A DNA stretch of 64,000 nt from Peristeroidobacter soli (GTDB taxonomy: Bacteria > Pseudomonadota > Gammaproteobacteria > Steroidobacterales > Steroidobacteraceae): positions 434,001 to 498,000 of the forward strand of contig NZ_RYEV01000003.1 in NCBI RefSeq assembly GCF_004138485.1, given 5' to 3'. Both the position numbers and the translations under genes were made by a program. The notes below the pieces were generated by a model. That model had not been told where the DNA came from. It made no database searches and saw only the letters and a program-made list of their open reading frames with translations. Below, piece by piece: positions 36,812 through 53,413 of this stretch; the stretch's first letter is position 1, and each line of letters begins with the position of its first letter.

Positions 36812-36849
36812 TGCGCGACTGAACGGGCAGGGAGCCGTTGATTCAGCAA

Positions 36850-36878: not shown

Positions 36879-37004
36879 GTTTCCGTATTATTTCACCGTG
36901 TGCTGATGATCGCGACCGGCAAGGTCGTTAACGCCTGGAAAGCAGCGCGCGATGCGCTGCCCGGGCGCCATGAGGCGGATCATCAAACAAACATGGGGAC
37001 GATC

Positions 37005-39764
37005 ATGTCGAGAGAGTTTCTTGGGCCGCTCGCCAGCGTGCCGCGCGCGATTCGGATTGCGATGCTCGCGGCGGGCATGGCGACGCTTGCAGTGTCGAAC
37101 GTTCATGCGCAGGAGAACCGCGAGCAGCAGGTGGTGACGCGTGAATATAACGTTCCCGCCGGGCCGCTCGGCACCGCGTTGCTGGCTTTCGGACAGCAAG
37201 CGGGCATTCAGTTCACCGTGGACATCACCGTCACCAAGGGCAAGCGCACCGCCGGCATCCGAGGCAGCATGAACGCGGAGCAGGCGTTGGGTGCGCTGCT
37301 CGGAGGCACGGGGCTCACCTATCGCTTCACCGGGCCGCGCACGGTGGAAATAGAAACATTGCCGGTCACCGGCGACACGCGCATGTTGGGGCCGGTGCGC
37401 ATCGAAGGCGCGGAGTCCGGCCGCGCGCTGGCGGGAATCAACGGCAGCAGCGACGCCACTGCGACCGAGAACAGCGGCAGCTACACGCCGGAAGCGACGG
37501 CGCTGGTGAGCAAGACGGCAACGGCGCTGAAGGATACTCCGCAAAGCGTGAGCGTGATGACGCGTCAGCGCCTCGACGATCAGAACCTCACCGATTTTCG
37601 CTCGGTGATGGAACAGCTGCCGGGCATCACCGTGCGCCAGGGCGCCAACAATCTTTCCAACGATTTCTATTCGCGCGGGTTCGAGGTCAGAACCTATCGC
37701 GTCGATGGCGGCGCGCCGGCGTCGACCGCTTATTTCTACCAGCCCAACTTCGACATGGCGATGTACGACCACGTCGAGCTGCTGCGCGGCTCGGACGGCA
37801 TGTATTCAGGCTACGGCGAGCCCGGTGGCATCGTGAACCTGGTGCGCAAGCGGCCGCTGGATCACAACCAGGCGCTCCTCGATCTGCAGGTCGGCAGCTG
37901 GAACGACAGGCGCGTCTCGCTCGATGTGACCGGTCCGATTCCGTCGCTCGACGGCGTGCGCGGCCGCCTGGTCGCGGTTCATCAGGAGCAGGACTTCTTC
38001 TACGACGTGGCCGACGTCGACAACTCCATGGTGTATGGCGTGCTCGAAACGAACGTGACGGACGAACTGGTCCTGCGCGGCGGCTTTCAGATCGCCAATC
38101 GCGACGCCACGCCCTGGCAAGCGGGACTGCCGCGCTATCAGACCGGCCCGAGCCTGCCGTTGTCGCGCGAAACCTGCCTGTGTTTCGACGACAGCTACGA
38201 GGAGCTGAAGACTCAGGAATTGTTTCTGGCCGGTGAGTATCAGTTCGCACCGAGCTGGCAGCTCAAGTTAAATTTGATGACCCAGAAACAGAAGCAACGC
38301 ATCTGGTACGGCGAAGGCAGCGGCGCGCTGAATCCCAATACCAATCGCGGCTGGCGTATGTACGGCTGGTATGGCGCCGAGCGCGAACCGTACAACCACG
38401 GTGTGGACCTGCTGGTCAGCGGCGAGTTCTCGCTGTTCGGCATTCCGCAGAAGCTCGCGGTCGGCGCCAACTATCAGGAAACGCAGGTCGAGTCGTTGAC
38501 CTTTGTCGCGAACACCACCGGCTTGCAGGCCTACGACGGCTTCGTGCCGGGCTACCCCGCCGGCGATCCCGCCAACTACGAGGCCGACATCCTCAACTTC
38601 GATCGCAACGCCTATCTGCGTCAGCCGCTCGGTGCGCAGAAGCGCGACTACTACGATCAGGGTTTCAACACTCATACGGCGTACGCCAACTGGAGCGGTG
38701 AGTTTTTCGGGCGGCTGCATCTGAATCTCGGACTTCGTTACAGCTACTACAAGTACAACGAGACCTCGCGTGGCTTCTGCAGCAGCTTCCGGGACAGCAT
38801 GTGCAATCTGTTCGGCGATTTGCCGGATGGCACTTTCGGCGTGATCGCCCGGGTTCCGATCGGCGCGCCGACCGGAGATTTCTACAAGCGTATCAACAAT
38901 GCCGACGAGACATTCTCCTTGCCGCCGACGTGGTCGCTGGTGTACGACCTGGCCGACAACTGGACGGCCTACGGCAGCTATGCCGACATCTATCGCAGCC
39001 AGGCGAACAATCTCGACGTGAATCACAACCCGCTGCCGCCGGTGACGGGCTTCACGGCGGAATTCGGCACGCGCTATGTCGGTCGCGATGGCCGTCTCAA
39101 CGCTTCGCTCGCGGGATATTACACAGTGCAGGAAGACATGGCGGCGCTGTTGTACAACGACATCGAATTCAACGAGTCCATGCGCTGGAACGTCTCGTGC
39201 TGTTACTACGTGGGTGAGGAGCAGAAGGCGACCAGCTACGGCCTGGACGCCGAGGTGACCGGCGAGATCTGGACCGGCGTGCAGATCGCGGCCGGCTATA
39301 CGCTCAATCGCAATAAGTTCGAGTGGAACACGCCGGACTTTCAGTCGCGAGAACCGCTCAGAACGTATGCGCCGGAACATCATCTGAAGCTGTGGGCCTC
39401 ATGGGATGTGCGCAGGCAGTTTCCCCGCCTGGATGGGTTGCGGGTCGGCGCCGGCGTCAACTACCAGAGCGCCAGCTACAACAGCGGCTCGGTGTGCACC
39501 CAGTATGTCGTGAGCGGTGTCGATCCGCTGACCAATCAGCCGGTCGTCGACTGCGACAACTTCGCGCCCTTCGCATTCACCCAGGGCGGCTATGCCGTCA
39601 GCTCGGCGATGGCCTCCTATCGGCTGGACAACACCTGGACCTTGTCGCTCAACGTGAACAATCTGTTCGACAAGACCTATTTCGTGCGTACCGGCAGCGT
39701 CGACAACGACAACTGGTACGGCGAGCCCCGCAGCTTCTCGCTGGGTCTGCGCGGCAAGTTCTGA
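37005..39764 (+). CDS. TonB-dependent receptor with N-terminal STN signalling domain
   Basis: The product has 919 residues from ATG 37005, with GGGGA five bases upstream; the frame is open upstream but those codons are non-coding. The signal peptide ends VHA|QEN. An STN (secretin/TonB N-terminal) domain occupies about 46-115 (FGQQAGIQFTVD). The plug begins near 165 with TALKDTPQSVSVMTRQRLDDQ and SRGFEVRTYRVDGG. The 22-strand barrel ends in GLRGKF with a terminal Phe. It resembles the FpvA/FhuE siderophore-receptor branch. The STN domain fits the upstream FecI/FecR pair. Several cysteines (CLC, GFC...SMC, SCC, VC...VDC) lie in predicted surface loops. The substrate is unknown; it may not be a siderophore given the peptidase neighbours. 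Confidence 0.93.
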   Translation: MSREFLGPLASVPRAIRIAMLAAGMATLAVSNVHAQENREQQVVTREYNVPAGPLGTALLAFGQQAGIQFTVDITVTKGKRTAGIRGSMNAEQALGALLGGTGLTYRFTGPRTVEIETLPVTGDTRMLGPVRIEGAESGRALAGINGSSDATATENSGSYTPEATALVSKTATALKDTPQSVSVMTRQRLDDQNLTDFRSVMEQLPGITVRQGANNLSNDFYSRGFEVRTYRVDGGAPASTAYFYQPNFDMAMYDHVELLRGSDGMYSGYGEPGGIVNLVRKRPLDHNQALLDLQVGSWNDRRVSLDVTGPIPSLDGVRGRLVAVHQEQDFFYDVADVDNSMVYGVLETNVTDELVLRGGFQIANRDATPWQAGLPRYQTGPSLPLSRETCLCFDDSYEELKTQELFLAGEYQFAPSWQLKLNLMTQKQKQRIWYGEGSGALNPNTNRGWRMYGWYGAEREPYNHGVDLLVSGEFSLFGIPQKLAVGANYQETQVESLTFVANTTGLQAYDGFVPGYPAGDPANYEADILNFDRNAYLRQPLGAQKRDYYDQGFNTHTAYANWSGEFFGRLHLNLGLRYSYYKYNETSRGFCSSFRDSMCNLFGDLPDGTFGVIARVPIGAPTGDFYKRINNADETFSLPPTWSLVYDLADNWTAYGSYADIYRSQANNLDVNHNPLPPVTGFTAEFGTRYVGRDGRLNASLAGYYTVQEDMAALLYNDIEFNESMRWNVSCCYYVGEEQKATSYGLDAEVTGEIWTGVQIAAGYTLNRNKFEWNTPDFQSREPLRTYAPEHHLKLWASWDVRRQFPRLDGLRVGAGVNYQSASYNSGSVCTQYVVSGVDPLTNQPVVDCDNFAPFAFTQGGYAVSSAMASYRLDNTWTLSLNVNNLFDKTYFVRTGSVDNDNWYGEPRSFSLGLRGKF

Positions 39765-39883: not shown

Positions 39884-41386
39884 ATGCCGAACGAAGCAAG
39901 GATCCTCGCGTCCGTGGACGAAACAATTTGCCTGTCGCCCTCGCAAGCTGAAGCGCTGGCGCAGATCGAGCGCTGTATCGGCAAGACCACCGTGGTCACC
40001 TTGAACGGCAAGCCCGATTGCGGCCGGACGACGCTGGCGCAGGCGCTCGCTGCCCGTGGCAACCGCAAGCTGCTCGACAGCGTCGCCATTGCGCTCGCAA
40101 TCCGCGCCGACGAGCCGGCCCGCGCCGACGAATCCATCGGCGTCATCATTCGCGAAGCCGTTCTGCGCTACGACGTCGTCATTCTCGATGACGCCAGCGC
40201 TTATCTCGCCATGTCGACACCCAGGATGCGCGGTCATCTGTTCTGGGAGGTCGTGCTGCCCGAGATCATCGAGCTGGCCGAGCAGCGTGGCGTGACACTG
40301 GTCATCATCGGCGAGCCGCAAGAGACGTGGCTGTCCAAAGCGGTGACCTACGGTGGCCGCGCGATTGCGGTGGCCTTGCCCGAGCTCACCGAGGCTGACT
40401 ATCGTCACATCGCGAGCACCGTGCTGGGTCCGCACGGCTGCGCACAGCTCGATTTCGAATCCATCCAGCGCCGCATGGCCGGCCTCACCGCGACTCAGAT
40501 CGTGGTCGCGTGTCGCGATCTGTTGCGGCAGAAACAAGTGAGCACGCAGGGCTTCGTGGCGGCCGTCGAGCGCTGGTTCGATCGGCAGGCCATCGATCTG
40601 AGCGAAGTGGAACAGATTTCCTTCGACGAACTGCCGGGCCTGCAAACGCTCGCGGCGTCGTTGGAGCGCAATGTGATTCTGCCGCTGGAACGCACCGACC
40701 TGGCGTTGCGCTTCGGACTCACCGCCAAGCGCGGCGTGCTGTTGTACGGACCGCCGGGCACTGGCAAGACCAGCATCGGCCGCGCGTTGGCCAAGCGGTT
40801 GCAAGGCCGCTTCTTCATGGTCGATGGCAGCGTGATCAGCGAGCCGCCGTCCGCGTTCTTCGGCCGGCTCGATGCCATCGTGCGTTCGGCGATCGCCGCT
40901 TCGCCTGCGGTGCTGTTCATCGATGACGCCGATCTGTTGTTCGAGCTGGAGCACATCGCCGGTCTGCAGCGCTATCTGCTGACCATCCTCGACGGCCTGG
41001 AGAGCGATTCGGCTTCGCGGGTGTGCGTGATCCTGGCGGTGATGGACGTGCGCAAAGTGCCGGACGCCATCATTCGCTCCGGCCGGGTCGAGCTGTGGCT
41101 GGAAACCAAGGCGCCGGAAGAAGGCTACGCGGCGGACATCATGCAGGTGCATGCGGACAAGGCAGGCTTTCGCGCGACGCGTACCGAGCTCGAAATCGTC
41201 GCCGCCAAGGCCGCGGGCTTCACGCCGGCGGATCTGCGGCGTGTGGTCAACGAAGCGAAGCTGCTGCAAGTGACCGATCAGGTCGACGGCGCGCCCGCAC
41301 GCATGAACTTCGACTATCTCAACGACGCTGCCGCCGCCGTGCTCGAAGCACGCGCGCAAATGCAGCTGGCCGTTGCTTCCCTGTAA
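39884..41386 (+). CDS. AAA+ ATPase 1 of 6
   Basis: The product has 500 residues, predicted soluble and cytoplasmic (no signal or helix). The N-terminal domain has a P-loop-like NGKPDCGRTT (42-50) in which the Walker A lysine is Arg48, and Walker B VVILDD (102-103). The linker EVEQISFDELPG leads to the C-terminal AAA domain: Walker A GPPGTGKTS (289-297, Lys295), pore-loop region SEPPSAFF, Walker B LFIDDAD (Asp348 where Glu is usual), sensor 1 region LAVMDVRKVP with Met instead of Asn, arginine fingers IIRSGRVELW, sensor 2 FTPADLRR. No clear Shine-Dalgarno precedes ATG 39884. First gene after the receptor terminator. Function unknown; see the array entry and findings. Confidence 0.9.
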   Translation: MPNEARILASVDETICLSPSQAEALAQIERCIGKTTVVTLNGKPDCGRTTLAQALAARGNRKLLDSVAIALAIRADEPARADESIGVIIREAVLRYDVVILDDASAYLAMSTPRMRGHLFWEVVLPEIIELAEQRGVTLVIIGEPQETWLSKAVTYGGRAIAVALPELTEADYRHIASTVLGPHGCAQLDFESIQRRMAGLTATQIVVACRDLLRQKQVSTQGFVAAVERWFDRQAIDLSEVEQISFDELPGLQTLAASLERNVILPLERTDLALRFGLTAKRGVLLYGPPGTGKTSIGRALAKRLQGRFFMVDGSVISEPPSAFFGRLDAIVRSAIAASPAVLFIDDADLLFELEHIAGLQRYLLTILDGLESDSASRVCVILAVMDVRKVPDAIIRSGRVELWLETKAPEEGYAADIMQVHADKAGFRATRTELEIVAAKAAGFTPADLRRVVNEAKLLQVTDQVDGAPARMNFDYLNDAAAAVLEARAQMQLAVASL

Positions 41387-41396
41387 GGAACATTTC

Positions 41397-42953
41397 GTGT
41401 TGAGCAAACGCAATCCGGACGCGCCGGCGCTCGCCGCATCGTCCTTCATCGTCCTGCCTCAGGAGCGCGTCGAGCTGACGCCGGCGCAGCGAGTGGCGTA
41501 TCGGCAGGTGACAACGGCGCTGCAGATCGGACCGCTCGCGGTGATTTCGGGCGAGGCCGGCTCGGGCAAGCGAACGGTGCTGGCGCAGCTGGCCCGCGAT
41601 CTCGGCGCCCGGCTGATCGGCGCGGACGAGTTGCAGCGTCACCTCATGGTCCGCGACGAGAACACGCGCGACATCGCGACCTTCGAGTATCTCGAGCGAG
41701 CGGTCGTGGCCAACGAAGTCACTTGTCTGTGGTGGGACGACACGCATCTGGAGATCGGCGCGCTCAGCAATCACATGCAGCCGGAGATCCACGGCGTGTT
41801 GGTGAAGTCATTGTTCCGTACGCTGCAGCGGGCCGGTCACAAGCTGATCGTCGCCGGCCCGCCCAAGAAATCGTATGCCCCGAGCATGTTGCATACCGGT
41901 TATGCGATCGGCGAGGAGATTCCGAGCTTCGCGGCCGAGGACTATCGGGTCGCGCTCACCAACATGATCGGCGAGACGCGCGTCGGCAACATCGATTGCG
42001 ACGCCATGTTTCGGCATGCGCCGCTGCTCAACATGCACGATCTGAAAGTCATTGCGCGGGCGTTGCTGATGGCCGAGCGCGATGGCGACAGGATCGGCAC
42101 CGCGTCGGTCCTGCGGGTGATCGACGCCGTCGTGCGCGAGGGCAACGTCAATCTCAAGGAAGTCGAGGATGTGACCTTCGATCTGCTGCCCGGCGCCGAG
42201 CACATTCGCGATGCGCTGGAGAAACTGGTGGTGCGTCCGATCGAGCTCGCCTCCAGCATGCCCGGCGGTGTGAAGCCCAAACGCGGCGTGTTGCTGTACG
42301 GACCGCCGGGCACGGGCAAGACCAGTATCGGCCGCGCGCTCGCGAATCGCATGGGTGGGCGCTTCTTTCTGATCGACGGTTCGATGCTGACCGAGCCGCC
42401 CGGTGCGTTCTTCGAGAAGTTCCTGACGGTGGTCCACGACGCCATGCGCGAGGGGCCGTCGGTGCTGTTCATCGACGATGCCGACGTGCTGTTCGAGATC
42501 GTGCACATCTCCGGCCTGACCCGGTATCTGCTGACGCTGCTCGACGGCTTGGAGAGCGAATCGTCACGCAATGTTTGTGTGGTGTTGACGGCGATGGATC
42601 CTCGCAAGGTGCCCGAAGCCATCCTGCGCTCCGGTCGCATCGAGCTGTGGCTCGAAGCCCGGAGGCCGATGGCGGAGACCCGAGCTCGCATGATCCAGCG
42701 CTGGCTGCACGGCGCGATGCCGCGCGAACACGACGTCGATCTGCCGAAGCTGGGCGAGTTGACGAGCGGGTTCATCGCGGCCGACCTGCGTCGCATCGTG
42801 ATGGACGCGCAATGTCTGTACGGAATGGATCTGCACCGTCGCGCAGTGCCGCAGGCGGCTCAGCATTACTTGGAGCGAGCCATTGTCACGCTGAAGCAGG
42901 CGAGAAATCGGATGGCGGAAGTGCTCGGCAAGCCGGAGATGCGAATCCCATGA
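41397..42953 (+). CDS. AAA+ ATPase 2 of 6
   Basis: The product has 518 residues from GTG 41397, chosen for the AGGA box eight bases upstream, ten bases after the first ATPase gene. The N-terminal P-loop is GEAGSGKRT (52-60), with Lys58 kept but the following Ser/Thr replaced by Arg59; Walker B-like CLWWDD. EVEDVTFDLLPGAEHI bridges to the C-terminal AAA domain with Walker A GPPGTGKTS (302-310, Lys308), TEPPGAFF, VLFIDDADVLF, LTAMDPRKVP, ILRSGRIELW and FIAADLRRIV. The N-terminal EDYR motif after the central strands is shared with four of the siblings. Its stop overlaps the next start (ATGA), so translation is coupled. Confidence 0.9.
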   Translation: MLSKRNPDAPALAASSFIVLPQERVELTPAQRVAYRQVTTALQIGPLAVISGEAGSGKRTVLAQLARDLGARLIGADELQRHLMVRDENTRDIATFEYLERAVVANEVTCLWWDDTHLEIGALSNHMQPEIHGVLVKSLFRTLQRAGHKLIVAGPPKKSYAPSMLHTGYAIGEEIPSFAAEDYRVALTNMIGETRVGNIDCDAMFRHAPLLNMHDLKVIARALLMAERDGDRIGTASVLRVIDAVVREGNVNLKEVEDVTFDLLPGAEHIRDALEKLVVRPIELASSMPGGVKPKRGVLLYGPPGTGKTSIGRALANRMGGRFFLIDGSMLTEPPGAFFEKFLTVVHDAMREGPSVLFIDDADVLFEIVHISGLTRYLLTLLDGLESESSRNVCVVLTAMDPRKVPEAILRSGRIELWLEARRPMAETRARMIQRWLHGAMPREHDVDLPKLGELTSGFIAADLRRIVMDAQCLYGMDLHRRAVPQAAQHYLERAIVTLKQARNRMAEVLGKPEMRIP

Positions 42954-44449
42954 AACCTGCAAACGCAACGACCCTGCTGCCGTTTCAGCTCGATGCAACC
43001 GACAAGGTCTGTGCCGCGCTGGGATATTCCACGCGCGTCGCCCTCATCGGTCAGATTGGCGATGGCAAGAGCCGGGTGGCGGCCGAGGTCGCGCAGCGCT
43101 ATCGCAGCCGCATCGTCACCGCCGAGGAATTTCTGGAGCTGGATCGCAGCTATCGGCGCAACCAGCAGAGCGGCGGTTCGTTCGATATGCAGGAACTGCT
43201 GAAGGACGCGATCCGACACTGCGATGTGCTGGTCATCGACGACTACGACACGCTGCATATGCATGCCGGCTTCGCCTTGCGTCGAACGTTCCTGAAACGG
43301 TTCGTGCAGGAATGCGATCGTCTCGGCAAACGCCTGCTCACGGTGCATCGTGCGCCGGTCCCGTTCCTGTTCGAATCGCAGGAAGACGCGTGGCGTCGCA
43401 TGCGCCACGACCTGAGATATGAAGGCCTGGCGGAGGTGGTGGTGCTCGAAGAGAAGCGTGCGCCCGACTTGCAGGCGTTCGCGCGCTCGCGCGTGAGCGA
43501 GGGCGTCGAGCAGATCGACTTCGCATTGATCGAGAACGAGGCGCCCAGGATCACGCTGGCGGAATTCGGCACCGCGCTGGCCGAATTCACGCGCGCCGGC
43601 AAGCCCGGGACCAGTGGTTTGATCGAGGCGATTCGCGCCAGCAACGGCGGCGGCAACGTCAGGGAGACCGAGGTTGAGAAGATCGGCTTCGAGCAATTGC
43701 CAGGCGCCGAGTCGTTGCTCGAACAGCTCGAGACCCACGTGGTGATTCCGCTCGAAGAGCATGCGCTGGCGGCGAGGCTCGGACTCAAGGCCAAGCGGGG
43801 TGTGCTGCTGTATGGACCGCCGGGCACCGGCAAGACATCGGTGGGTCGTGCGCTCGCGCATCGCATGAAAGGCAAGTTCTTCATGATCGATGGGTCGGTG
43901 ATCACCGAGCCGCCGTCGTTCTTTTTCTTTCAGGTGCAGCGGGTGGTGACGCTCGCCAAGGAGAACGCGCCGGCGGTGATCTTCATCGACGACGCGGATC
44001 TGCTGTTCAGCGTTCATCACGTCGCCGGCCTGCTGCGTTATCTGTTGTCGCTGCTGGACGGGGTGGAGAGTCAGAGCGCGGGGCGGGTCTGCATCATGAT
44101 GACGGCGATGGATCCGGCGAAGCTGCCGCCGGCGCTGATCCGCTCCGGGCGCGTCGAGCTGTGGCTGGAGACACGCACGCCCGATCGTGAGACCCGGGTT
44201 CGGATGATGCAGCGGTGGCTCGCTGGCAACGACCTGCACGATGCAAACGGTCTGGACGCAGCTGCCGAGATTTCCGAAGGCTTCACGCCCGCGGACCTCC
44301 GGCGTCTGGTCGAAGATGCGAAGTTGACCAGCGCGGCCCGACGCAAGCGAGGCGAGCACGATGCCACGATCGCAAGCTCCCTGGCCGTGGCGGCGGAAGA
44401 GATCAAACGCATGCGCCAAGAGATGTCGGCTACCTGGGCACAACATTGA
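42950..44449 (+). CDS. AAA+ ATPase 3 of 6
   Basis: The product has 499 residues from ATG 42950, overlapping the previous stop; a long open frame further upstream is a shadow of gene 2. The N-terminal P-loop GQIGDGKSR (34-42) is fully canonical (Lys40, Ser41), with Walker B VLVIDDYD. This copy lacks the EDYR motif of the others. EVEKIGFEQLPGAESL leads to the C-terminal AAA: GPPGTGKTS (289-297, Lys295), TEPPSFFFF, VIFIDDADLLF, MTAMDPAKLP, LIRSGRVELW, FTPADLRRLV. It has the intact ATP site in both domains, so it is one of the likely two-site ATPases of the set. Confidence 0.9.
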   Translation: MKPANATTLLPFQLDATDKVCAALGYSTRVALIGQIGDGKSRVAAEVAQRYRSRIVTAEEFLELDRSYRRNQQSGGSFDMQELLKDAIRHCDVLVIDDYDTLHMHAGFALRRTFLKRFVQECDRLGKRLLTVHRAPVPFLFESQEDAWRRMRHDLRYEGLAEVVVLEEKRAPDLQAFARSRVSEGVEQIDFALIENEAPRITLAEFGTALAEFTRAGKPGTSGLIEAIRASNGGGNVRETEVEKIGFEQLPGAESLLEQLETHVVIPLEEHALAARLGLKAKRGVLLYGPPGTGKTSVGRALAHRMKGKFFMIDGSVITEPPSFFFFQVQRVVTLAKENAPAVIFIDDADLLFSVHHVAGLLRYLLSLLDGVESQSAGRVCIMMTAMDPAKLPPALIRSGRVELWLETRTPDRETRVRMMQRWLAGNDLHDANGLDAAAEISEGFTPADLRRLVEDAKLTSAARRKRGEHDATIASSLAVAAEEIKRMRQEMSATWAQH

Positions 44450-44469
44450 AGCTCCACGGAACAAGCAAT

Positions 44470-45978
44470 ATGAATCCGATTCCTACGCGAGTTCAGACCG
44501 CCGCGGTCGACGCGGCGCTGCTGCGACTCCAGAAGCCAGGCGTGGTGGCCATTGTTTCCGAGCCCGGGCTGGGACGAACCACGGTGCTGCGGGAAATCGC
44601 GTCACGTCTCGGCGCGCGCTTCGTCGGGCTGGATGAAATCCTGCGCGTCGTGTCGGGCGTGCTTCCGGAGCGGGCGGACTTCGCGGTCCACCGGCTTCTG
44701 GAAGACGCGCTGCGAACCGGTGATGGCATCGCCATCGACGATTTCAGCAATCTCATGCACAACGGTGGCGGCGGCTTTCCCGTGCTCGGCACGCGTGCAA
44801 TGTACTTCCAGCGGTTTCTGATACCCGCGCTGTGGAAGCAGGCGCGTGCCGCGGGCAAGCGAGTCATTTTGTCTGGCGCGGTGCCTACCGATCGTCGCGG
44901 CCTGTCCGATCACTCGGTCGACCGGCTCTACGGAGTCGCGGACGCAGAGGTGGTCACGCTGGCCGCGATGGAAGCGGAGGATTATCGACGCATTCTCGGC
45001 AACTGGATGCAGGCGACGCAGGTTGATGCGATCGACGTCGAGCGCATTCACAGTGCCGCGCCGTACATGACGTGCTATCAGCTGAGAGATATCGCGCGTG
45101 CCTGTAACGCGTCGGGCACTTCGCGCCCGACTACCGAAACGGTTCTCGAACAGGTGCAGCGGGTCGGCGTTCGCTCCAACACCAGAACGCAGGAGGTCGA
45201 GGCGCTGCGCTTCGACGATCTGCCTGGCGCCGAGCACATCACTTCCAAGCTCGAAACGCACGTGCTCATGCCGCTGGAAGCCGACGAGGCGCTCGGGCTC
45301 CGGCCGAAGCGCGGCGTGCTTCTATATGGTCCGCCCGGCACGGGCAAGACCAGTATCGGTCGCGCGCTCGCGCATCGAATGAAAGGCAAGTTCTTTCTGC
45401 TCGACGGCTCATTCGTGACCGACTGGCCGGGATTTTTCTTCGCCCGCGTCGAGCATCTGATTCGTGAGGCGCAGGCCAACGCGCCCTCGGTGGTGTTCAT
45501 CGACGACGCCGACGTGCTGTTCACCATTCCGCACATCGCGGGACTGCCGCGATTGCTGCTGACACTGCTCGACGGCATCGAGGGTGACCGCGCGAACAAG
45601 GTGTGCGTGATGATGACGGCGATGGACCCGAGAAAGATTCCGGATGCGGTGCTGAGGTCCGGTCGCGTCGAGCTGTGGCTTGGAACGCGCACGCCCGATG
45701 CGGATGCGCGCGCCAGGATCATTCGTAAATGGATGCCGGCGACTTTGCCGAAGCTCGACCGTGCCGACTATGCACACCTGAGTGCGATCACGCAGGGATG
45801 CACGCCGGCGGATCTGCGCCGGCTCGCCGAAGATGCGCGCTCGATCCATGCCTTCGACACGGTGAAAGCGCATCCGCTCCAGTCCGCGCAGGACTATTAC
45901 GAGCGCGCCGTGCAGATCAACCTGGAGTCGCGCCGGCTGATGCAGGACGCGAAGCTCGAACTGGCCACGGCCGTTTGA
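44470..45978 (+). CDS. AAA+ ATPase 4 of 6
   Basis: The product has 502 residues from ATG 44470. The N-terminal P-loop is degenerate: SEPGLGRTT (30-38), with Ser for the first Gly and Arg36 for the Walker A lysine; Walker B GIAIDDFS. EDYRRILGNW follows. EVEALRFDDLPGAEHI leads to the C-terminal AAA: GPPGTGKTS (287-295, Lys293), VVFIDDADVLF, MTAMDPRKIP, VLRSGRVELW, CTPADLRRLA. The pore-loop region reads TDWPGFFF rather than the EPPxxFF of the other five, the only departure in that element. The stop is eight bases before gene 5. Confidence 0.9.
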   Translation: MNPIPTRVQTAAVDAALLRLQKPGVVAIVSEPGLGRTTVLREIASRLGARFVGLDEILRVVSGVLPERADFAVHRLLEDALRTGDGIAIDDFSNLMHNGGGGFPVLGTRAMYFQRFLIPALWKQARAAGKRVILSGAVPTDRRGLSDHSVDRLYGVADAEVVTLAAMEAEDYRRILGNWMQATQVDAIDVERIHSAAPYMTCYQLRDIARACNASGTSRPTTETVLEQVQRVGVRSNTRTQEVEALRFDDLPGAEHITSKLETHVLMPLEADEALGLRPKRGVLLYGPPGTGKTSIGRALAHRMKGKFFLLDGSFVTDWPGFFFARVEHLIREAQANAPSVVFIDDADVLFTIPHIAGLPRLLLTLLDGIEGDRANKVCVMMTAMDPRKIPDAVLRSGRVELWLGTRTPDADARARIIRKWMPATLPKLDRADYAHLSAITQGCTPADLRRLAEDARSIHAFDTVKAHPLQSAQDYYERAVQINLESRRLMQDAKLELATAV

Positions 45979-45986
45979 GGAACTTT

Positions 45987-47453
45987 ATGCAGCTCACTCA
46001 AAACCAACACGACTTTCTGGGCGACGTGCGCAAGGCACTCGCGACTTCTTCCATCGTCGCGCTGGCCGGCTCGGACGGCATGGGCAAGACGACGCTGTGC
46101 CAGGCGCTGTGCGATGAGGACGGGGCGGCCATTGTGCGGCTCGGCGATCTGACAGACGCGGTCTGCGGCGCCGATCCCGGCCGGATCGATGAGATCGCGA
46201 TGGCCGTGATCGTCGAGCAGCTCGAGGCCGGGCGCACCCTGATCATCGACGACTTCGAATACATGATGGCGATCCGTACCCACGAACGGCGCGATCTCAT
46301 GTCGAGCACCATCTTGCCGAGCATCTATGCCGCGGCGGATCGCGTCGGCTCGCGACTGGTGCTGGTGGGCAGCGGCTCCATCGACAAGCACTGGCTCAGG
46401 CAGAAAGATATCTATCGTCCGCATGTGGTGATGATGCATGTGCCGGGCTTCACCTCCGAGGACTATCGATCTATCGCGAGCGGCAGCGTCGAGGGTGCCC
46501 GCTTCGACGGCGTGGATTTCAAAGTGGTCCACCGCGCTTCGCCCATGCTCAACGGCTATCAGATCGCCGCGGCGGCAAAACTCGCGGCAGCCGACGGTGG
46601 CGAGATCACGACCGAGAGTTTCCTTGGCGTGATCGCTGCCTGGATCACTCAGAGCAACGTCGATGCCGGCAAGGTCGAGCCGATTCGTTTCGACTCGCTG
46701 CCTGGGTCCGAGCACATCGCGCAGACGCTGGAGATGTTCGTCGTCCTGCCGTACGAGGATCTCGAGCGTGCCGAGCGGCTGAGATTGAAAGCCAAGCGCG
46801 GCGTGCTGCTCTATGGCCCACCGGGCTCGGGCAAGACCAGTATCGGTCGCGCGCTCGCGCATCGGATGAAGGGCAAGTTCTTCATGATCGACGGCAGCAT
46901 CGTGAGCGAGCCACCGACCAAGTTCTTCGAAGCGGTGCAGGCCATCGTCGCCGAAGCCAAGGCGAACGCGCCTTCGGTGCTGTTCATCGACGATGCCGAC
47001 GTGCTGTTCGGTATCGAGCACATCGCCGGGCTGTCACGGTATCTGCTGTCGGTGCTCGACGGCGTGGAAAGCGAGTCGGCCAGCAAGGTGTGTCTGATGA
47101 TGACCGCGATGGATCCGAATCGGGTGCCGGAACCGTTGCTGCGTTCGGGGCGCGTCGAGCTCTGGCTCGGCACGCGGCTGCCGGATCAGGAGACCCGCGA
47201 GCGCATGTACCGTCGCTATCTCGCTGAAGGCTTCGACGATGTGGCGAGTTTCGATGTGCACGCCATCGCGCGGAACAGCGAGGGTTTCACACCGGCCGAT
47301 GTGAGAAGGGCGGTCAACGACGCCAAGCTCGAGTATGCGAGTCAGCTGGTCGCGCAGATGGATGCGACTCCGTCCACTCACCATGTGATCAATGCCATCG
47401 AACGCATCCGTACGATGCGACAACTGATGACCGAGCAAGGACTGGCTGCCTGA
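45987..47453 (+). CDS. AAA+ ATPase 5 of 6
   Basis: The product has 488 residues, the shortest of the set. ATG 45987 follows AGGAA. The N-terminal P-loop GSDGMGKTT (28-36, Lys34) is canonical, and Walker B is LIIDDFE. EDYRSIASGS follows. KVEPIRFDSLPGSEHI leads to the C-terminal AAA: GPPGSGKTS (277-285, Lys283), SEPPTKFF, VLFIDDADVLF, MTAMDPNRVP, LLRSGRVELW and FTPADVRRAV. As in the siblings, Asp replaces the catalytic Walker B glutamate and Met occupies the sensor 1 position. With copy 3 it has canonical Walker A motifs in both domains. Confidence 0.9.
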   Translation: MQLTQNQHDFLGDVRKALATSSIVALAGSDGMGKTTLCQALCDEDGAAIVRLGDLTDAVCGADPGRIDEIAMAVIVEQLEAGRTLIIDDFEYMMAIRTHERRDLMSSTILPSIYAAADRVGSRLVLVGSGSIDKHWLRQKDIYRPHVVMMHVPGFTSEDYRSIASGSVEGARFDGVDFKVVHRASPMLNGYQIAAAAKLAAADGGEITTESFLGVIAAWITQSNVDAGKVEPIRFDSLPGSEHIAQTLEMFVVLPYEDLERAERLRLKAKRGVLLYGPPGSGKTSIGRALAHRMKGKFFMIDGSIVSEPPTKFFEAVQAIVAEAKANAPSVLFIDDADVLFGIEHIAGLSRYLLSVLDGVESESASKVCLMMTAMDPNRVPEPLLRSGRVELWLGTRLPDQETRERMYRRYLAEGFDDVASFDVHAIARNSEGFTPADVRRAVNDAKLEYASQLVAQMDATPSTHHVINAIERIRTMRQLMTEQGLAA

Positions 47454-47472
47454 GCGTGGCCGGATCAAACCT

Positions 47473-49077
47473 ATGTTGAACATGTTGAAAGTCACGAACG
47501 CTCCGGCCGCCGACCCGGCACTCACACCGTCGCAGCGGACGGCGGTCGAGAATGCCAAGAAGCTGCTGGCCGCGGCGCCTGCGATCGTCATTCGCTCGCC
47601 CGGTGGCGTGGGGTGCTCCACCGTCATGCGCAGTATCGCCCGGGCCTTTGGCGGCAGAGTGGTGACGTTGAGCGACGCGCTCGCCTGGTCGCAGAGCCGG
47701 GGGGTGATACGGACCGACGAGGCAATACAACGCTGCGTCGAATATCACATCGGCCATTATCCGCTGGTGGCCATCGACAACTTCGAATCGATCTTTCATC
47801 CGGGCGGGCGAGGAACCCGCGAAGTGCCAGGCATTCGCTCGATCCTGCTGCGCAGTCTGTATCAAGCCGCTCGCGCGCGTGGAACGAAGCTCGTCATCGG
47901 CGGCAAATCCGCGAACGTTTATGGCAACCGCCTGGAAGACCTGGCCAACTGCCCCGAGGCGCTGATCCTCAAGGTCGATGAGCTCACCGCCGAAGACTAC
48001 CGTACGGTCCTCGCCAACTTGTTGGGCGAGCGCGCGACCTCGAGCGTCGATTTCAAAGTCGTGCATCGATCGGTGCCGGGCCTGTCGGGACATCAGTTGC
48101 GCATACTGTGCAACTTCCTGGCGGCCGTGCCGGCGCCGAGCACCGATGACGTGTTGCGCGTGATCGAACAACATCTGATCAAAGGCAATGTGCGTCTCGG
48201 CGAAGTCGAGCAGCTGTCGTTCGATGAGTTGCCCGGCACGGGCGACATCGCGGCCAGCCTGGAGAGTCAGGTGGTGTTGCCGATCCTGAATGCCGAGCTG
48301 AGCGAGCGTCTGCAACTGCGGGCCAAGCGCGGCGTGCTGCTCTATGGCCCGCCCGGTACCGGCAAGACCAGCATCGGGCGCGCGCTCGCGCATCGCATGC
48401 GTGGCCGGTTCTTCATGATCGACGGTACGTTCGTTACCGAGCCGCCCAATGCGTTCTTCAGCAAGGTGCGCAACGTGGTCGAGCGGGCAATCGAGGGTTC
48501 GCCGTCGGTGCTGTTCATCGACGACGCCGATGTGTTGTTCAACATCGAGCACATTGCGGGCCTGGCCCGTTATCTGCTCACGCTGCTCGACGGCCTGGAG
48601 ACCGAGTCGACTTCGAAAGTCTGCGTGATGATGACGGCGATGGACCCGCGCAAGGTGCCGAGTGCCCTGTTGCGCTCGGGCCGCGTCGAACTCTGGTTGC
48701 AAACAAAGCTGCCGGACGAGGCGGCGCGCGCGGGCATTCTGCGACGGTGGGTTGGCGATGCGTTTGCCGAGATCGGTGCGCCAGACTTTGCCAGGATCGC
48801 CGCTGTTACCCAGAGCTATACACCGGCGGATCTGCGTCGCGTGGTCGGAGATGCGAAATTGCTCTGCGCCGCCGATGTTGCCGCAAGCCAGCCGCTGGAG
48901 AGCGCGACGACTTATCTCGAACGCGCTGTCGAAGATCTGAGCGCGGCACGTTGGCGCATGGCCGATCTGCGTTCGGACGAGAACATTCGCATCGGCGGTC
49001 AGCCGAAAGGCAAGTACGCGCTGGGCGTGGGCGGGCTGTCCGAGATCGGCGTGGGCTGCAAGATGAACGGTTGGTGA
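47473..49077 (+). CDS. AAA+ ATPase 6 of 6, with C-terminal extension
   Basis: The product has 534 residues from ATG 47473 (ATG 47482 also possible). Its N-terminal ATP site is the most degenerate: SPGGVGCST, with Cys48 in place of the lysine, and Walker B VAIDNF with Asn replacing the second acidic residue. LTAEDYRTVL follows. EVEQLSFDELPGTGDI leads to the C-terminal AAA: GPPGTGKTS (292-300, Lys298), TEPPNAFF, VLFIDDADVLF, MTAMDPRKVP, LLRSGRVELW and YTPADLRRVV. Beyond the helix where the siblings end there is an extra glycine-rich tail of about 28 residues ending GCKMNGW. It is the last ATPase gene, 80 bases before the lipoprotein gene. Confidence 0.9.
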   Translation: MLNMLKVTNAPAADPALTPSQRTAVENAKKLLAAAPAIVIRSPGGVGCSTVMRSIARAFGGRVVTLSDALAWSQSRGVIRTDEAIQRCVEYHIGHYPLVAIDNFESIFHPGGRGTREVPGIRSILLRSLYQAARARGTKLVIGGKSANVYGNRLEDLANCPEALILKVDELTAEDYRTVLANLLGERATSSVDFKVVHRSVPGLSGHQLRILCNFLAAVPAPSTDDVLRVIEQHLIKGNVRLGEVEQLSFDELPGTGDIAASLESQVVLPILNAELSERLQLRAKRGVLLYGPPGTGKTSIGRALAHRMRGRFFMIDGTFVTEPPNAFFSKVRNVVERAIEGSPSVLFIDDADVLFNIEHIAGLARYLLTLLDGLETESTSKVCVMMTAMDPRKVPSALLRSGRVELWLQTKLPDEAARAGILRRWVGDAFAEIGAPDFARIAAVTQSYTPADLRRVVGDAKLLCAADVAASQPLESATTYLERAVEDLSAARWRMADLRSDENIRIGGQPKGKYALGVGGLSEIGVGCKMNGW

Positions 49078-49157
49078 CGTATCGAGACGCGCGATGATGA
49101 ATCGCGCGTCGCCGTTCGTTGAAGCGGGTGTGTATTCCACCATGGAACTGCCCGGGC

Positions 49158-49784
49158 ATGGTTTTCTGGATCCGCTTTCGATTGCTGGCCGCCGCATGCC
49201 TGATGCTGGCCGCTTGCGACATGAACCCCGATCCGAAGTTCGCCGAAAAGCGGGCGGCGGCCGACAGCGCCAACCTCGGCGATCGTTATGCGCTGCTCGA
49301 TCACGCCCCCGACACCGGTCTTTACGGCTGGTGGCCGGCGGACGAGGCACCGGCGCGCGCGGCTGCTGAAGCGGTCTCTCAGGCGCAGCGATATGCCGTC
49401 CTGCTCGGAACATTGAAGGAGCAGGAGCAATCGCTGCCTCCGCAACCCTCGCTCGCCGGATGCTCGCAGCGCTTTCAGGAAGTGGTGGACTACGCGTCCG
49501 GCAACGGCGACCGGCAATCCGCATCGGCGCCGCACGCGCTCGTCGAGAAACTGTTGCGCTGTCGAGAGGCCGCCATCGCCATCGAAGATCCGGACAGCGA
49601 CGAGCTCGCGTCCTATCTGGGCGGGGTCCGCAAGTTCGCATCGACCGGCACGATCATCGTCGGCATGCGCTGCCTCAATGGACCGGATCGCGAGCGCTGT
49701 CTCGAGCATTGGAGCCGCGGCGCCAGGTTGTTGGGGAAGGACAAGGAAGGCTTCCGCCTCACTCTGGACAAGCTGCGCGGCTGA
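49158..49784 (+). CDS. Lipoprotein of unknown function with four cysteines in the mature part
   Basis: The product has 208 residues from ATG 49158. The signal is FRLLAAACLMLAAC with lipobox LAAC (Cys20). Asp at +2 would, under the E. coli Lol rule, retain it at the inner membrane. The mature protein is helical and soluble, with cysteines in AGCSQRF, LLRCREA, GMRCLNG and RERCLEHW that could form two disulfides. I recognise no domain. It starts 80 bases after the last ATPase gene and ends 12 bases before the ABC transporter gene, so it may be a periplasm-facing partner of the transporter. Function unknown. Confidence 0.75.
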   Translation: MVFWIRFRLLAAACLMLAACDMNPDPKFAEKRAAADSANLGDRYALLDHAPDTGLYGWWPADEAPARAAAEAVSQAQRYAVLLGTLKEQEQSLPPQPSLAGCSQRFQEVVDYASGNGDRQSASAPHALVEKLLRCREAAIAIEDPDSDELASYLGGVRKFASTGTIIVGMRCLNGPDRERCLEHWSRGARLLGKDKEGFRLTLDKLRG

Positions 49785-49796: not shown

Positions 49797-51596
49797 ATGA
49801 TTCATATCGATCCGCGCGACTATCGCCTGGACTGGCGGCTCATGCGCCGCATCTGGCGCCTGGCCGCGCCTTACTGGCGGCTGCGCGCTCACTGGAAATC
49901 CTGGGTGCTGATCTGCTTCGGCATTCTGATCGGCCCGGCGTGGGCGTACTTCAACTATCGGCTGGCGCAGATCGGCGCGGAGCAGGCCAACGTCCTGGTC
50001 AACCGCGACGCGGCCGCCTGGCACGCCATCTTCTGGCTGCTGTTCTTCCTCGGGCTCGGGCGCTGGGCGTACGACCTGGTGCTGGGCCTGTTGAACAAGC
50101 TGCTGGAGATGCACTGGTATCGCTGGATGACCGAATGGATGGTGCAGCGATATCTCACCAGCAAGACTTACTACGACATTGCGATCAAGGACGACATCGA
50201 CAATCCGGACGAGCGCATTCAGGACAACGTCGCGCCGTTCGTGAGCGCCATCCTGGGCTTTCCGTTGATGGTGCTGAATACCGTGCTGGGCATGGCGACC
50301 AACGCCGTGCTGTTGATCCAGGTCAGCTCGGCGATGACCGCGTTCGTGGTCGGCTATTCGGTCGTGTCGCTGGTGCTGCAGACGGCGATCTACTGGCCGC
50401 TGATCCGTAAGAACTTCGACGCGGTGGCCGCCAACGCGGACTTCCGTTTCGGGCTGCTGCGGGTCCGGGACAACGCCGAGACCATCGCGTTCTTTCGCGG
50501 CGAGGGCATGGAACGGCGCCAGGTGTCGGGTCGGCTGGGGCGTGTGATCGGCAGCCAGATGAACATTTATTACTACACGCTCAAGACCGGCGTGATCACC
50601 AAGGCCTTCGAAGAGGTGTGGACGCTGGCACCGCTGGTGTTCATCTATCCGTTGTACTTCGCCGGCAAGATGGAGTTCGGCACCATCGCGCTGGCCACCA
50701 TGGCGGCCATGCAGCTGCGAGGCGCCATCGGCATGCTCAATCAATACATCCCTTATGTGGCCGGCGTCGCGCCCCGCGTGGTCCGTCTGGCGCAGATCGC
50801 CGAGCGATTCGACCTGCTGGAGCAACACGCCAGGGACAGCAATGCGAACATTTCCATCGAGCGCGGCGACCGCATCGAGCTGCATGGGGTGAGCTTCATG
50901 ACTCCGGGCGGCGAGCAGCAGTTGGCGCAGAATGTTTCCGTGCAGGTGTTGCCCGGCGACAGCTTGATCATCATCGGCCAGACGGGCGTGGGGAAGAGCT
51001 CGATGCTCCGTTCGATGGCGGGGCTTTGGACGCGCGGCAGCGGCTCGATGATGATGCCGGCCGAGGACGACATCATGTTCGTGCCGCAGAAGCCGTACAT
51101 GATGCTGGGCACGTTACGCGACCAGCTGCTCTATCCGCGCGGGCAGGCGACGTTGAGTGAAGAAGAGATCCAGCGCGTGCTGGAGCGAGTGTGTCTGCCG
51201 GATCTGCTCGCCAAGGTGGGCGGGCTCGACGCGGAGTGCGACTGGAGCAAGGTGTTGTCGCTCGGCGAGCAGCAGCGCGTGTCGTTCGCACGCATTCTGA
51301 TTTCGAAGCCTCGCTATGTGTTTCTCGACGAGTCCACCAGTGCCGTCGACATTCCCACCGAATCGCGCCTGTATCGAACGCTGATGGAGGAGGGCGTCAC
51401 GTTCGTGAGCGTGGGCCACCGTGAAACCATCCTGCGTTTCCATCGTCGTGCGCTACGACTACTGGTCGGCGGCGGCTGGGAGATCGTGGCGTCCTCGTCC
51501 ATCGAGGAAACGCCGGTGGCGCCGCTCGGCAGCGATTGGGTCTCGGACGCGGTGCCGAGGGTACTGCTTGATGTTCCCACGCCAGTCGTTCGTTAG
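49797..51596 (+). CDS. YddA/SbmA-BacA-type ABC transporter, fused permease and ATPase
   Basis: The product has 599 residues. The membrane domain of about six helices (35-330) is of the SbmA/BacA-like ABC_membrane_2 type: NPDERIQDNVAPFVS, PLIRKNFDAVAANADFRFGLLRVRDNAETIAFFRGEG. The ATPase part has Walker A GQTGVGKSS (394-402), the variant signature LSLGEQQRVSFARIL (about 487) used by YddA and ABCD proteins, Walker B YVFLDEST and VGHR. Relatives import peptides and peptide antibiotics (SbmA, BacA) or sit with a TonB receptor and M16 protease (YddA, FusD). It is the probable inner-membrane step for whatever the upstream receptor takes up. Confidence 0.93.
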   Translation: MIHIDPRDYRLDWRLMRRIWRLAAPYWRLRAHWKSWVLICFGILIGPAWAYFNYRLAQIGAEQANVLVNRDAAAWHAIFWLLFFLGLGRWAYDLVLGLLNKLLEMHWYRWMTEWMVQRYLTSKTYYDIAIKDDIDNPDERIQDNVAPFVSAILGFPLMVLNTVLGMATNAVLLIQVSSAMTAFVVGYSVVSLVLQTAIYWPLIRKNFDAVAANADFRFGLLRVRDNAETIAFFRGEGMERRQVSGRLGRVIGSQMNIYYYTLKTGVITKAFEEVWTLAPLVFIYPLYFAGKMEFGTIALATMAAMQLRGAIGMLNQYIPYVAGVAPRVVRLAQIAERFDLLEQHARDSNANISIERGDRIELHGVSFMTPGGEQQLAQNVSVQVLPGDSLIIIGQTGVGKSSMLRSMAGLWTRGSGSMMMPAEDDIMFVPQKPYMMLGTLRDQLLYPRGQATLSEEEIQRVLERVCLPDLLAKVGGLDAECDWSKVLSLGEQQRVSFARILISKPRYVFLDESTSAVDIPTESRLYRTLMEEGVTFVSVGHRETILRFHRRALRLLVGGGWEIVASSSIEETPVAPLGSDWVSDAVPRVLLDVPTPVVR

Positions 51597-51634
51597 TGAA
51601 CGTCCGAGCACTCACGAAGAGACCGATTCATCCA

Positions 51635-53413
51635 ATGACCACGCCGACCCGTACCCCGCTTGTCACTCCCTGGGCTGACCAGGTCGATCGCAATTCGCCG
51701 CTGCCCGAGTATCCGCGACCGCAGCTGGTGCGCGAGCGCTGGACCAATCTCAACGGCGTGTGGGACTACGCGATCGCACCTCGCGAGCAGGCAGCGCCGG
51801 AGCAATGGCAAGGCGAGATCGTGGTGCCCTTTCCCGTCGAATCGCATCTCTCCGGCGTGGGCCAGTCGCCGGGCCCGGGCGGCAAGCTTTGGTACAAGCG
51901 CAAGTTCGCGAAGCCGAAGTTGCACGCGGGCGAGCGCGTGCTGCTGCATTTCGGCGCCGTCGATTGGCAAGCCACGGTCTCCGTCAACGGCCATGCACTC
52001 GGCGTGCACGAAGGCGGTCACGATCCGTTCTCGTTCGATATCACCAACGTGCTGCGCGAAGGCGAGGAACAGGAGTTGATGGTCGCGGTATGGGATCCGA
52101 CCGATGCGGGCGCTCAGCCGCGAGGCAAGCAGAGCCTGCATCCGCAGGCGATCTGGTACCTGCCGGTCACTGGCATCTGGCAGACGGTGTGGCTCGAAGT
52201 CGTGCCGGCCGCTTACATTCATGGCCTGCAACTCACGCCGGAGTTCGATCGCAGCTCAGTGCGCGTGGCGGTGAACCTGCGCGGGCCGCGGGCTGACGCC
52301 AGCTTGAATGTGCGCATTCTCGCCGAAGGTCAGCTGGTCGCCGAACAGACCCTCACCGAGTTCGATTCGCTGATCGATTTCTGCAAGGCTACCGAGATCC
52401 GCATTCCGGCGCCGCGCCACTGGTCGCCGGACTCGCCGTTTCTTTACGACGTCGAGCTCACTTACCGCTCGGCGGGTCAGGAAGACAAGGTGCGCAGCTA
52501 CTTCGGCATCCGCAAAGTGGAAGTGCGCAAAGCGGCCGACGGCTTCGAGCGGATTTTTCTGAACAACGAGCCGCTGTTCCTGTACGGCCCGCTCGATCAG
52601 GGCTGGTGGCCCGACGGTCTCTACACCGCGCCGACCGACGAGGCACTGCGCTGGGACATCGAGATCACCAAGGCCATGGGCTTCAACATGACCCGCAAGC
52701 ACATCAAGGTCGAGCCGGCGCGCTGGTATTACCACTGCGATCGCATCGGCCTGGTCGTGTGGCAGGACATGCCGTCGTCCTTGCGCAGTGGCGATCCCGG
52801 CCATGTGCCGCCGCGGCTGCAACCGCTTGACGGCGTGTTTACTGCCGAGGACGACGCGCAATTCCGTGCCGAGCTGCGCGCGATGATCGATGCGCTCCGA
52901 CACTTTCCATGCATCACGTCCTGGGTCACGTTCAACGAATGCTGGGGTCAGCATTCGACCAATAACATTCTCGCCTGGGTGAGAAGTCTCGATACGACGC
53001 GCATGGTGAACGGTCCGAGCGGCTGGAACGATCTTGGCTATGGCGACACCATCGACAAGCACGACTATCCGGGCCCGGGCATGTGGCCGCCGCAGCCGGG
53101 TCGTGCTTCGGTGCTCGGGGAATTCGGCGGCCTGGGTCTGCCGGTGCCGGGACATCTGTGGCAGGAGCAGGCCAACTGGGGGTATCGCGATTCGGACAAG
53201 GCCGAGGATCTGGTCGTGCATTACGACTCGATGCTTCGCCATCTGCGTCCGCTGATTCATCGCGGGCTCGCGGCGGCGGTGTACACGCAGCTGACCGACG
53301 TCGAAGGCGAGGTCAACGGCATGATCACTTACGATCGCAAGGTGCTGAAGATCACCGCCGAAAAACTCGCGGAGCTGCACTTGCCGCTCACCACGTCGAT
53401 CCGTCGGGATTGA
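51635..53413 (+). CDS. Glycoside hydrolase family 2 protein, cytoplasmic
   Basis: The product has 592 residues from ATG 51635. The sugar-binding jelly-roll is at about 30-180 (NLNGVWDYAI, HFGAVDWQATVSVNGHALGVHEGGHDPFSFDIT), an immunoglobulin-like domain at about 190-290, and the TIM barrel from 290. The acid/base Glu435 is in FNECWGQHST and the nucleophile Glu496 in LGEFGGLG. No signal peptide is seen, so it acts in the cytoplasm. Family members are beta-galactosidases, beta-glucuronidases or beta-mannosidases; specificity cannot be read. Its stop lies three bases before the M16 gene, suggesting that the imported substrate may carry sugar, though this is inference. Confidence 0.9.
   Translation: MTTPTRTPLVTPWADQVDRNSPLPEYPRPQLVRERWTNLNGVWDYAIAPREQAAPEQWQGEIVVPFPVESHLSGVGQSPGPGGKLWYKRKFAKPKLHAGERVLLHFGAVDWQATVSVNGHALGVHEGGHDPFSFDITNVLREGEEQELMVAVWDPTDAGAQPRGKQSLHPQAIWYLPVTGIWQTVWLEVVPAAYIHGLQLTPEFDRSSVRVAVNLRGPRADASLNVRILAEGQLVAEQTLTEFDSLIDFCKATEIRIPAPRHWSPDSPFLYDVELTYRSAGQEDKVRSYFGIRKVEVRKAADGFERIFLNNEPLFLYGPLDQGWWPDGLYTAPTDEALRWDIEITKAMGFNMTRKHIKVEPARWYYHCDRIGLVVWQDMPSSLRSGDPGHVPPRLQPLDGVFTAEDDAQFRAELRAMIDALRHFPCITSWVTFNECWGQHSTNNILAWVRSLDTTRMVNGPSGWNDLGYGDTIDKHDYPGPGMWPPQPGRASVLGEFGGLGLPVPGHLWQEQANWGYRDSDKAEDLVVHYDSMLRHLRPLIHRGLAAAVYTQLTDVEGEVNGMITYDRKVLKITAEKLAELHLPLTTSIRRD

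Follow-up and report, generated by a model that had tools for sequence, protein, structure and literature searches.

Results

Six neighbouring genes for related tandem AAA+ proteins

We analysed a 64,000-nucleotide stretch of the Peristeroidobacter soli genome (contig NZ_RYEV01000003.1, positions 434,001 to 498,000 of the forward strand; "the window"), in which positions 39884-49077 hold an array of six genes for related AAA+ ATPases, here called A1 to A6 (Table 1). A preliminary description had read this segment as six co-directional, neighbouring genes with nothing between them; the open reading frame calls bear this out and show all six genes to be complete. The genes are separated, in order, by 10 bases, a 4-base overlap, 20, 8 and 19 bases, an operon-like packing. 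Their products are 34-44% identical in pairs. A1 matches A2-A6 with expectation (E) values of 2e-80 to 3e-102 at 37-40% identity (34-38% in the full alignment), and A6 is 38-44% identical to A1-A5; judged from the sequences, this mutual likeness is not due to chance. When the whole genome was searched with A1, its five paralogues scored 272-344 bits and the next match 64 bits (28% identity, second half only). Because of this steep drop from 272 to 64 bits we take the copy count of this genome to be six, and the same search found no seventh array member. The genome has 49 Pfam AAA matches at E 0.001 or better, none of which, besides A1-A6, is close to the array. A mobile island was considered and rejected: no boundary was seen, the guanine-cytosine content is even across the window (0.61-0.65), and the window contains no tRNA gene.

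All six proteins match Pfam AAA in their second half (E 1.8e-24 to 2e-31). The first half had been described as a P-loop domain, which is correct in part; the AlphaFold2 model of A6, built with 40 aligned relatives (mean predicted local distance difference test score, pLDDT, 85.9; predicted template modelling score, pTM, 0.75), gives a richer picture, with a helical lid after the D1 core. Foldseek aligned nearly the entire A6 model to the D1-D2 portion of p97/Cdc48, and the alignments to p97/Cdc48-like proteins span 517-591 columns among the 50 matches listed. The A6 model and Foldseek together support two AAA+ domains per chain, and the weaker A1 model (pLDDT 74) has its elements in the same order. 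The common architecture claimed for the six holds in that all are related D1-D2 proteins; the bridge motif VExxxFDxLPG is literal in five of the six, A3 having VEKIGFEQLPG instead. A profile search found a Cdc48-like chain at E 2.5e-85, chiefly through D2. The D1-only profile found a VCP-like ATPase (E 1.5e-9) and Rix7 (E 1.6e-9), its top match being midasin over just 40 positions. For most D1 domains no Pfam family is clear: the families that recur most match 9 of 24, and the D1 of A6 matches none. We also considered an anti-phage system and rejected it, as the PADLOC matches of A1-A6 were only to generic AAA entries (best IetA, E 2.5e-15, D2 half only).

Residues K298, T299, D350, D351 and R404 of D2 (A6 numbering) are invariant in all 40 family members, and G295, G297, K298, T299, D350, D351, R401, G403 and R404 are identical in all 20 array proteins inspected. 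Of the 42 rows that extend to the Walker A lysine position of D1, by comparison, 23 have Lys, 13 have Arg and 6 have another residue. Since the catalytic residues of D2 are constant while D1 varies, no copy is decaying in its motor domain. Classical AAA proteins have a DE Walker B motif, a sensor-1 Asn and an aromatic pore-loop motif. Here the D2 Walker B motif is DD, the sensor-1 position reads TAM or similar rather than Asn, and no aromatic pore-loop motif of the usual kind can be seen in the D2 alignment. As the alignment has it, the DD motif and the missing Asn are traits of the whole family and not of the array. The array proteins thus share with p97/Cdc48 and the archaeal VCP-like ATPase the tandem D1-D2 AAA+ chain, and according to the models they resemble p97/Cdc48 D1-D2 with a variable D1 and a conserved D2; they differ from it in having no N domain, a degenerate D1 and the D2 motifs just described. 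All six also fall far below the cut-off of the NCBIfam CDC48 model TIGR01243 (82.6-111.2 bits against 802.65).

A rare family with one, two or six copies

One scan of 84,980 species genomes returned 31 loci, 30 of which contain a family member by hidden Markov model. Of these 30, 25 have one gene, four have two (L051, L052, L068 and L078; one of the two L068 copies is incomplete at a contig end) and one, a Sphingomonas metagenome-assembled genome (L053), has six. Whole-genome searches, which covered 27 of the 31 loci (leaving out L074, L075, L077 and L081), showed 22 genomes with a single copy, four with two and one, again the Sphingomonas genome, with six. The expectation that the number would consistently be six across genomes is not borne out by these counts. 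Among the loci scanned, intermediate numbers (three, four or five copies) and numbers above six were not seen. The loci span Proteobacteria, Acidobacteriota, Bacteroidota, Verrucomicrobiota, Planctomycetota and one Abditibacteriales metagenome-assembled genome, a wide and patchy spread that suggests transfer.

No orthologue was found in 39 relatives of P. soli, including 13 of the same genus, where the only matches were D2 matches of at most 75 bits that we take to be FtsH. Across 369 genomes of its class, 11 matched at E 1e-30 or better, namely ten with D2-only matches (106-111 bits) and P. soli itself. Searches in the families of genomes G407 (1 of 347), G405 (2 of 233), G408 (1 of 200) and G411 (1 of 149) and in the genus of G410 (1 of 298) returned the seed genomes themselves; these class, family and genus searches scored the best 4-10 candidates per genome, and isolated misses are possible. 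Among plasmids, 501 records match at 1e-5, two of them over at least 80% of the protein and at 25-28% identity. Matches in 75 phage records never covered at least 80%, and among 80 loci kept from viral contigs the best match (E 8e-14) lay over D2. The family is a rare bacterial D1-D2 AAA+ protein that nearly all sampled genomes lack.

No six orthologous clades

For the trees and D1 counts we excluded L068_1, L077 and L080 (contig ends), for the D1 comparison also the second L068 gene, and for one alignment the near copies L073 and L075. In a tree of 42 proteins, whose long branches limit the inference of orthology, the window and L053 genes form one clade with eight more proteobacterial proteins (support 100/100). 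Gene 1 of Rudaea pairs with gene 1 of Rhodanobacter and gene 2 with gene 2, both clades at 100/100, so that the two-gene operons are 1:1 orthologous. Within L053, genes 1 and 5 (100/100) and genes 2 and 6 (100/99) pair. In the window, A3 and A5 pair (97/87), a grouping that a smaller tree did not resolve. No window gene pairs with a single L053 gene in the 42-protein tree. Approximately unbiased (AU) tests reject none of the constrained topologies (six window genes as one clade, p 0.34; six L053 genes, p 0.36; all twelve, p 0.66). We also considered a separate clade for each array; the AU tests are compatible with it, yet the trees give it no positive support. Six orthologous clades across genomes, which the preliminary description had expected of a ring with one gene per position, were not recovered in these trees, in the AU tests or in a D1-only tree.

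Variable D1 domains and a hint of an alternating pattern

The window paralogues have a mean identity of 22% in D1 and 53% in D2. The ratio of D1 to D2 difference is 1.65 in the window, like the 1.62 and 1.90 of single-copy proteins, which argues against an extra drive on D1 in the window. The ratio of 3.09 in L053 arises because D2 has been copied within that array. L053 genes 1 and 5 are 34% identical in D1 and 96% in D2, and a 1164-base block comprising D2 and the start of the next gene is 92% identical between L053:2604-3763 and L053:8923-10084, which suggests recent copying or conversion within the array.

When the six genes of an array are divided into two sets of three, the odd/even split is the best of the ten possible splits for both D1 and D2, in the window and in L053, the D1 and D2 tests not being independent. 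In 300 column bootstrap resamples it ranked first in 72% (window, a weak result) and 99% (L053). Set against the two-gene operons, the odd genes of both arrays have D1 domains slightly closer to gene 1, and the even genes have D1 domains slightly closer to gene 2; for D2 the pattern breaks down in the even genes of the window. These similarities give a hint that six is three times two, a two-gene unit tripled.

A C-terminal tail on few copies

A6, alone among A1-A6, ends in a C-terminal tail, KYALGVGGLSEIGVGCKMNGW, which is disordered in the AlphaFold2 model (A6 residues 516-534, pLDDT <50). Nine proteins end in such a tail, with KY, RY or SY, a Cys in 8 of 9, and a terminal GW or GY. The tail occurs on the last gene in four of the five multi-gene proteobacterial loci (on one of six genes in the window, one of two in L051 and in L052, genes 2 and 6 of the six in L053, and neither of two in L078) and in four of five single-copy proteobacterial proteins (L054-L057, in which it is short and mutually unlike). 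Members from other phyla have none. Several tail-less copies end directly after the segment that precedes the tail elsewhere, for example DDKLRIG.

The array lies in a TonB uptake cluster

The genes on either side of the array belong to a TonB-dependent uptake cluster (Table 1). For comparison, ten proteobacterial loci (the window and nine whose names assign them to Proteobacteria) were set against 21 loci from other phyla. A TonB-dependent receptor is present in all 10 proteobacterial loci (weakly in L058, 21% identity over half of the query), a full-length YddA-type ATP-binding cassette (ABC) transporter in 8, an M16 peptidase in 7, FecR in 4, and an extracytoplasmic function (ECF) sigma factor and ExbB-ExbD-TonB in 3 each. 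None of the 21 other-phylum loci had a match to the window receptor or M16 peptidase, 8 of them being contigs of <9 kb and other TonB receptor types lying outside the search; ABC matches there were only partial (L072, L073). Of three receptors compared with NCBIfam, all were of the FauA/FhuE/siderophore type, and two (window and L056) passed the TIGR01783 cut-off. In the eight M16 proteins of the seven loci the M16 domain begins at the N-terminus or close to it, and no signal sequence is evident by eye and by hydropathy, a measure that on its own failed to separate the YddB control. This conservation suggests, from gene neighbourhoods, that in Proteobacteria the array protein serves a TonB-dependent uptake system. 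The literature searched, of which coverage was partial, yielded no report on such an array, and its link with a TonB cluster appears to be unreported there.

Table 1. Features of the array and its surroundings (positions within the window)
Feature	Position	Strand	Remarks
ExbB	33182..33982	+	
ExbD-like	33936..34391	+	52% identical to the L055 and L078 ExbD-like genes (assigned by this similarity)
TonB	34401..35171	+	
ECF sigma factor	35168..35740	+	
FecR-type anti-sigma factor	35741..36811	+	
TonB-dependent receptor, STN + plug + barrel	36789..39764	+	above NCBIfam cut-off TonB-siderophor (TIGR01783)
A1, D1-D2 AAA+ protein, 500 aa	39884..41386	+	D1 Walker A Lys replaced by Arg
A2, D1-D2 AAA+ protein, 518 aa	41397..42953	+	GTG start; TTG at 41400 is an alternative start
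A3, D1-D2 AAA+ protein, 499 aa	42950..44449	+	start overlaps A2 stop
A4, D1-D2 AAA+ protein, 502 aa	44470..45978	+	D1 Walker A Lys replaced by Arg
A5, D1-D2 AAA+ protein, 488 aa	45987..47453	+	D1 Walker A and Walker B both standard
A6, D1-D2 AAA+ protein, 534 aa	47473..49077	+	D1 Walker A Lys replaced by Cys
Orphan, lipoprotein-like N-terminus (by eye)	49119..49784	+	no Pfam match
ABC transporter, ABC_membrane_2 type (YddA-like)	49797..51596	+	
GH2 glycoside hydrolase	51596..53413	+	not conserved in related loci
M16 peptidase, HLFEH motif	53417..56080	+	no evident signal peptide
M3 peptidase, oligopeptidase A-like	56062..58113	+	

The presence of an M16 peptidase recalls the Fus and ydd-pqqL protease-associated import systems, which, according to PMC6793856, also place a TonB receptor, an inner-membrane transporter and an M16 peptidase in one cluster. 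The window ABC transporter is 24.5% identical to Escherichia coli YddA over 493 aa (E 2e-41) and the M16 peptidase 27% identical to PqqL over 219 aa (E 3e-17). The window receptor does not match YddB (best E 7.1) but belongs to the siderophore class; this comparison was made with YddB, not FusA. Two further differences concern the M16 peptidase, since E. coli PqqL is given as periplasmic in the same paper and the window protein has no evident signal peptide, and the AAA+ genes themselves, the words AAA and ATPase being absent from the main text of PMC6793856.

Several neighbouring features were recorded in their own right. The orphan gene at 49119-49784 has no match in other related loci at the cut-off used, and has a 24% identical counterpart in a second uptake locus of the same genome (G000:C3:733219-751999; L203, L204), where it lies beside M16 and ABC genes. 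This second locus has ExbB/D, TonB, sigma and FecR genes and counterparts of the M16 peptidase (44%) and ABC transporter (70%). A Na/Pi transporter stands in place of the receptor and AAA+ array; downstream are an STN-only frame and an unrelated AAA gene, and there is no full receptor. Both the array and a full receptor are missing from this locus, so that the two go together in this comparison. A search of 59 relatives for the window ABC transporter gave no match at 1e-90. Genes for LuxR-type regulators are a recurrent feature next to the uptake clusters (L051:7019-8122, L055:11208-12347 and L203:10619-11803). In Rudaea (L051:11576-12949, by Pfam) and Rhodanobacter (L052:8808-10118, called from similarity of its start only), a gene for a thioredoxin-domain protein separates the AAA pair from the M16 gene.

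Elsewhere in the same genome (G000:C1), outside the window, L112:3780-10262 is one 2161-codon frame with six tandem Pfam AAA matches, signal-like and transmembrane-like stretches by eye, and likeness between domains 3 and 5 and between 4 and 6. Pieces 92-95% identical to it occur on two G008 contigs and a 66% identical piece in G014, so that 3 of 79 genomes match, including its own. A single-chain six-domain ring, as in dynein or midasin, is a possible reading of this frame.

Discussion

By their sequences, A1-A6 are lineage-specific diverged copies of a p97/Cdc48-like protein without an N domain. We judge the chances to be about evenly balanced that they are subunits of a cytosolic remodelling ring that serves TonB-dependent uptake and that they co-assemble. 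The array proteins would be cytosolic and form two stacked rings, a degenerate D1 ring and an ATP-hydrolysing D2 ring. Such rings would remodel or unfold a polypeptide tied to the ligand being taken up, next to an M16 peptidase in the cytosol and, in the window, also to the M3 oligopeptidase. The least certain part of the proposal concerns multi-gene loci, whose copies would combine in mixed rings with the tail on just one or a few subunits, as a docking site for a partner. Each six-gene array would have arisen by tripling of a two-gene odd/even unit. A tripled unit of this kind would make an alternating ring more likely than one with six unique, fixed positions. The fullest version of this proposal, namely a p97-type double ring made from several genes, with the alternating unit tripled in two lineages and one docking tail per mixed ring for a partner such as the M16 peptidase, which would couple TonB-dependent uptake to ATP-driven processing in the cytosol, is tentative, and we would sooner doubt than expect it.

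Several observations weigh against this proposal. The mixed ring is a proposal drawn from sequence and from single-chain models. The odd/even pattern was noted post hoc, after the D1 tree had grouped A1, A3 and A5 with weak support; in L053 it is driven by the two close pairs 1/5 and 2/6, and the parity is inconsistent between the two arrays. All four Rudaea and Rhodanobacter genes form one clade (98/93), in which genes 1 and 2 are nearest relatives, so that the ancestral odd/even pair may have been a different one. Departures from the standard D1 Walker motif are not confined to arrays: they affect 4 of 23 rows from single-copy members and 8 of 18 from arrays (one-sided Fisher p 0.06), and the rows are not independent. 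As for the uptake role, L053 has no ABC transporter or M16 peptidase within the stretch examined, a receptor of the siderophore class does not imply a protein substrate, and the M16 peptidase would be cytosolic by its N-terminus only. L058 and both L078 proteins, moreover, have no tail, yet these loci keep the receptor and ABC transporter (L078 also the M16 peptidase).

There are four other possibilities. Each copy may form its own homohexamer, giving a repertoire in which a constant D2 motor is combined with varied D1 domains for different partners or ligands under one promoter. The far greater variability of D1 and the L053 genes 1 and 5, which look as if motors had been copied behind different D1 domains, would fit this, as would the 22 of 27 genomes with a single gene, whose product must act alone or with an unrelated partner. 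However, D1 also evolves faster in single-copy proteins (1.6-1.9 against 1.65 in the window), and the tail common to most single-copy proteobacterial members is absent from five of the six window copies. We regard a repertoire as doubtful, and a mixed ring as slightly more likely than separate rings on the sequence features weighed here. Simple gene amplification, with a number that has no functional meaning, would account for the sporadic distribution, the copy numbers of 1, 2 and 6 and the recent duplication or conversion in L053. The window copies are nevertheless only 34-44% identical, all are open and all keep the D2 residues checked; divergent copies that remain intact indicate long-lasting selection on each, and amplification alone is extremely unlikely.

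The fixed heterohexamer with six unique positions, the idea put forward in the preliminary description, draws on the fact that each array of more than two copies comprises exactly six. There are just two such arrays, however, 26 of the 27 relatives' genomes have one or two copies, and six orthologous clades were not recovered. Mcm2-7 and Rpt1-6 likewise consist of several paralogous AAA+ genes in one genome, but with six fixed orthologous clades, whereas here the copies number 1, 2 or 6 and the clades are not shared. Variable copy number and the want of six separate clades were the outcomes named in advance as speaking against the idea; on the sequences it is not supported, and we hold it to be quite unlikely. 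Co-assembly in general may survive, because the D2 residues are intact, the genes are packed as in an operon, the tail is on one gene, and the two-gene operon is 1:1 orthologous between Rudaea and Rhodanobacter. It would also go too far to say that bacteria have no known counterpart: the abstract of the review PMC9020784 describes heterocomplexes of cyanobacterial FtsH homologues, a precedent for mixed AAA+ rings from bacterial paralogues. FtsH differs in being a membrane protease; Pfam found no protease or membrane domain in A1-A6. The tail itself might instead be a peptide precursor that rides on the AAA+ protein and is cleaved from it; the ABC transporter would export the peptide, and the siderophore-type receptor would sense it or take it up. 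Five sequences have what may be a leader-like G-V/I-G-G followed by a short Cys-containing end, the receptor passes the siderophore cut-off in the window and L056, FecI/FecR-type genes adjoin, and NCBIfam NF040705, going by its name, joins a methanobactin precursor domain with a sigma factor in one protein. Yet L058 and L078 have the AAA gene, receptor and ABC transporter with no tail and, by a regular-expression scan beside the AAA genes, no separate tail-like gene. No known peptide-modifying enzyme family occurs among the genes scanned, and the L054-L057 tails are dissimilar, so that a precursor is very improbable.

If the copies of the remodelling ring do mix, nature would hold one-, two- and six-gene versions of one double ring, and the transition from homomeric to heteromeric rings would be traceable in bacteria. 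TonB-dependent uptake is usually described as ending at inner-membrane transport; if the proposed role is correct, these bacteria would have added an ATP-driven cytosolic machine to it.

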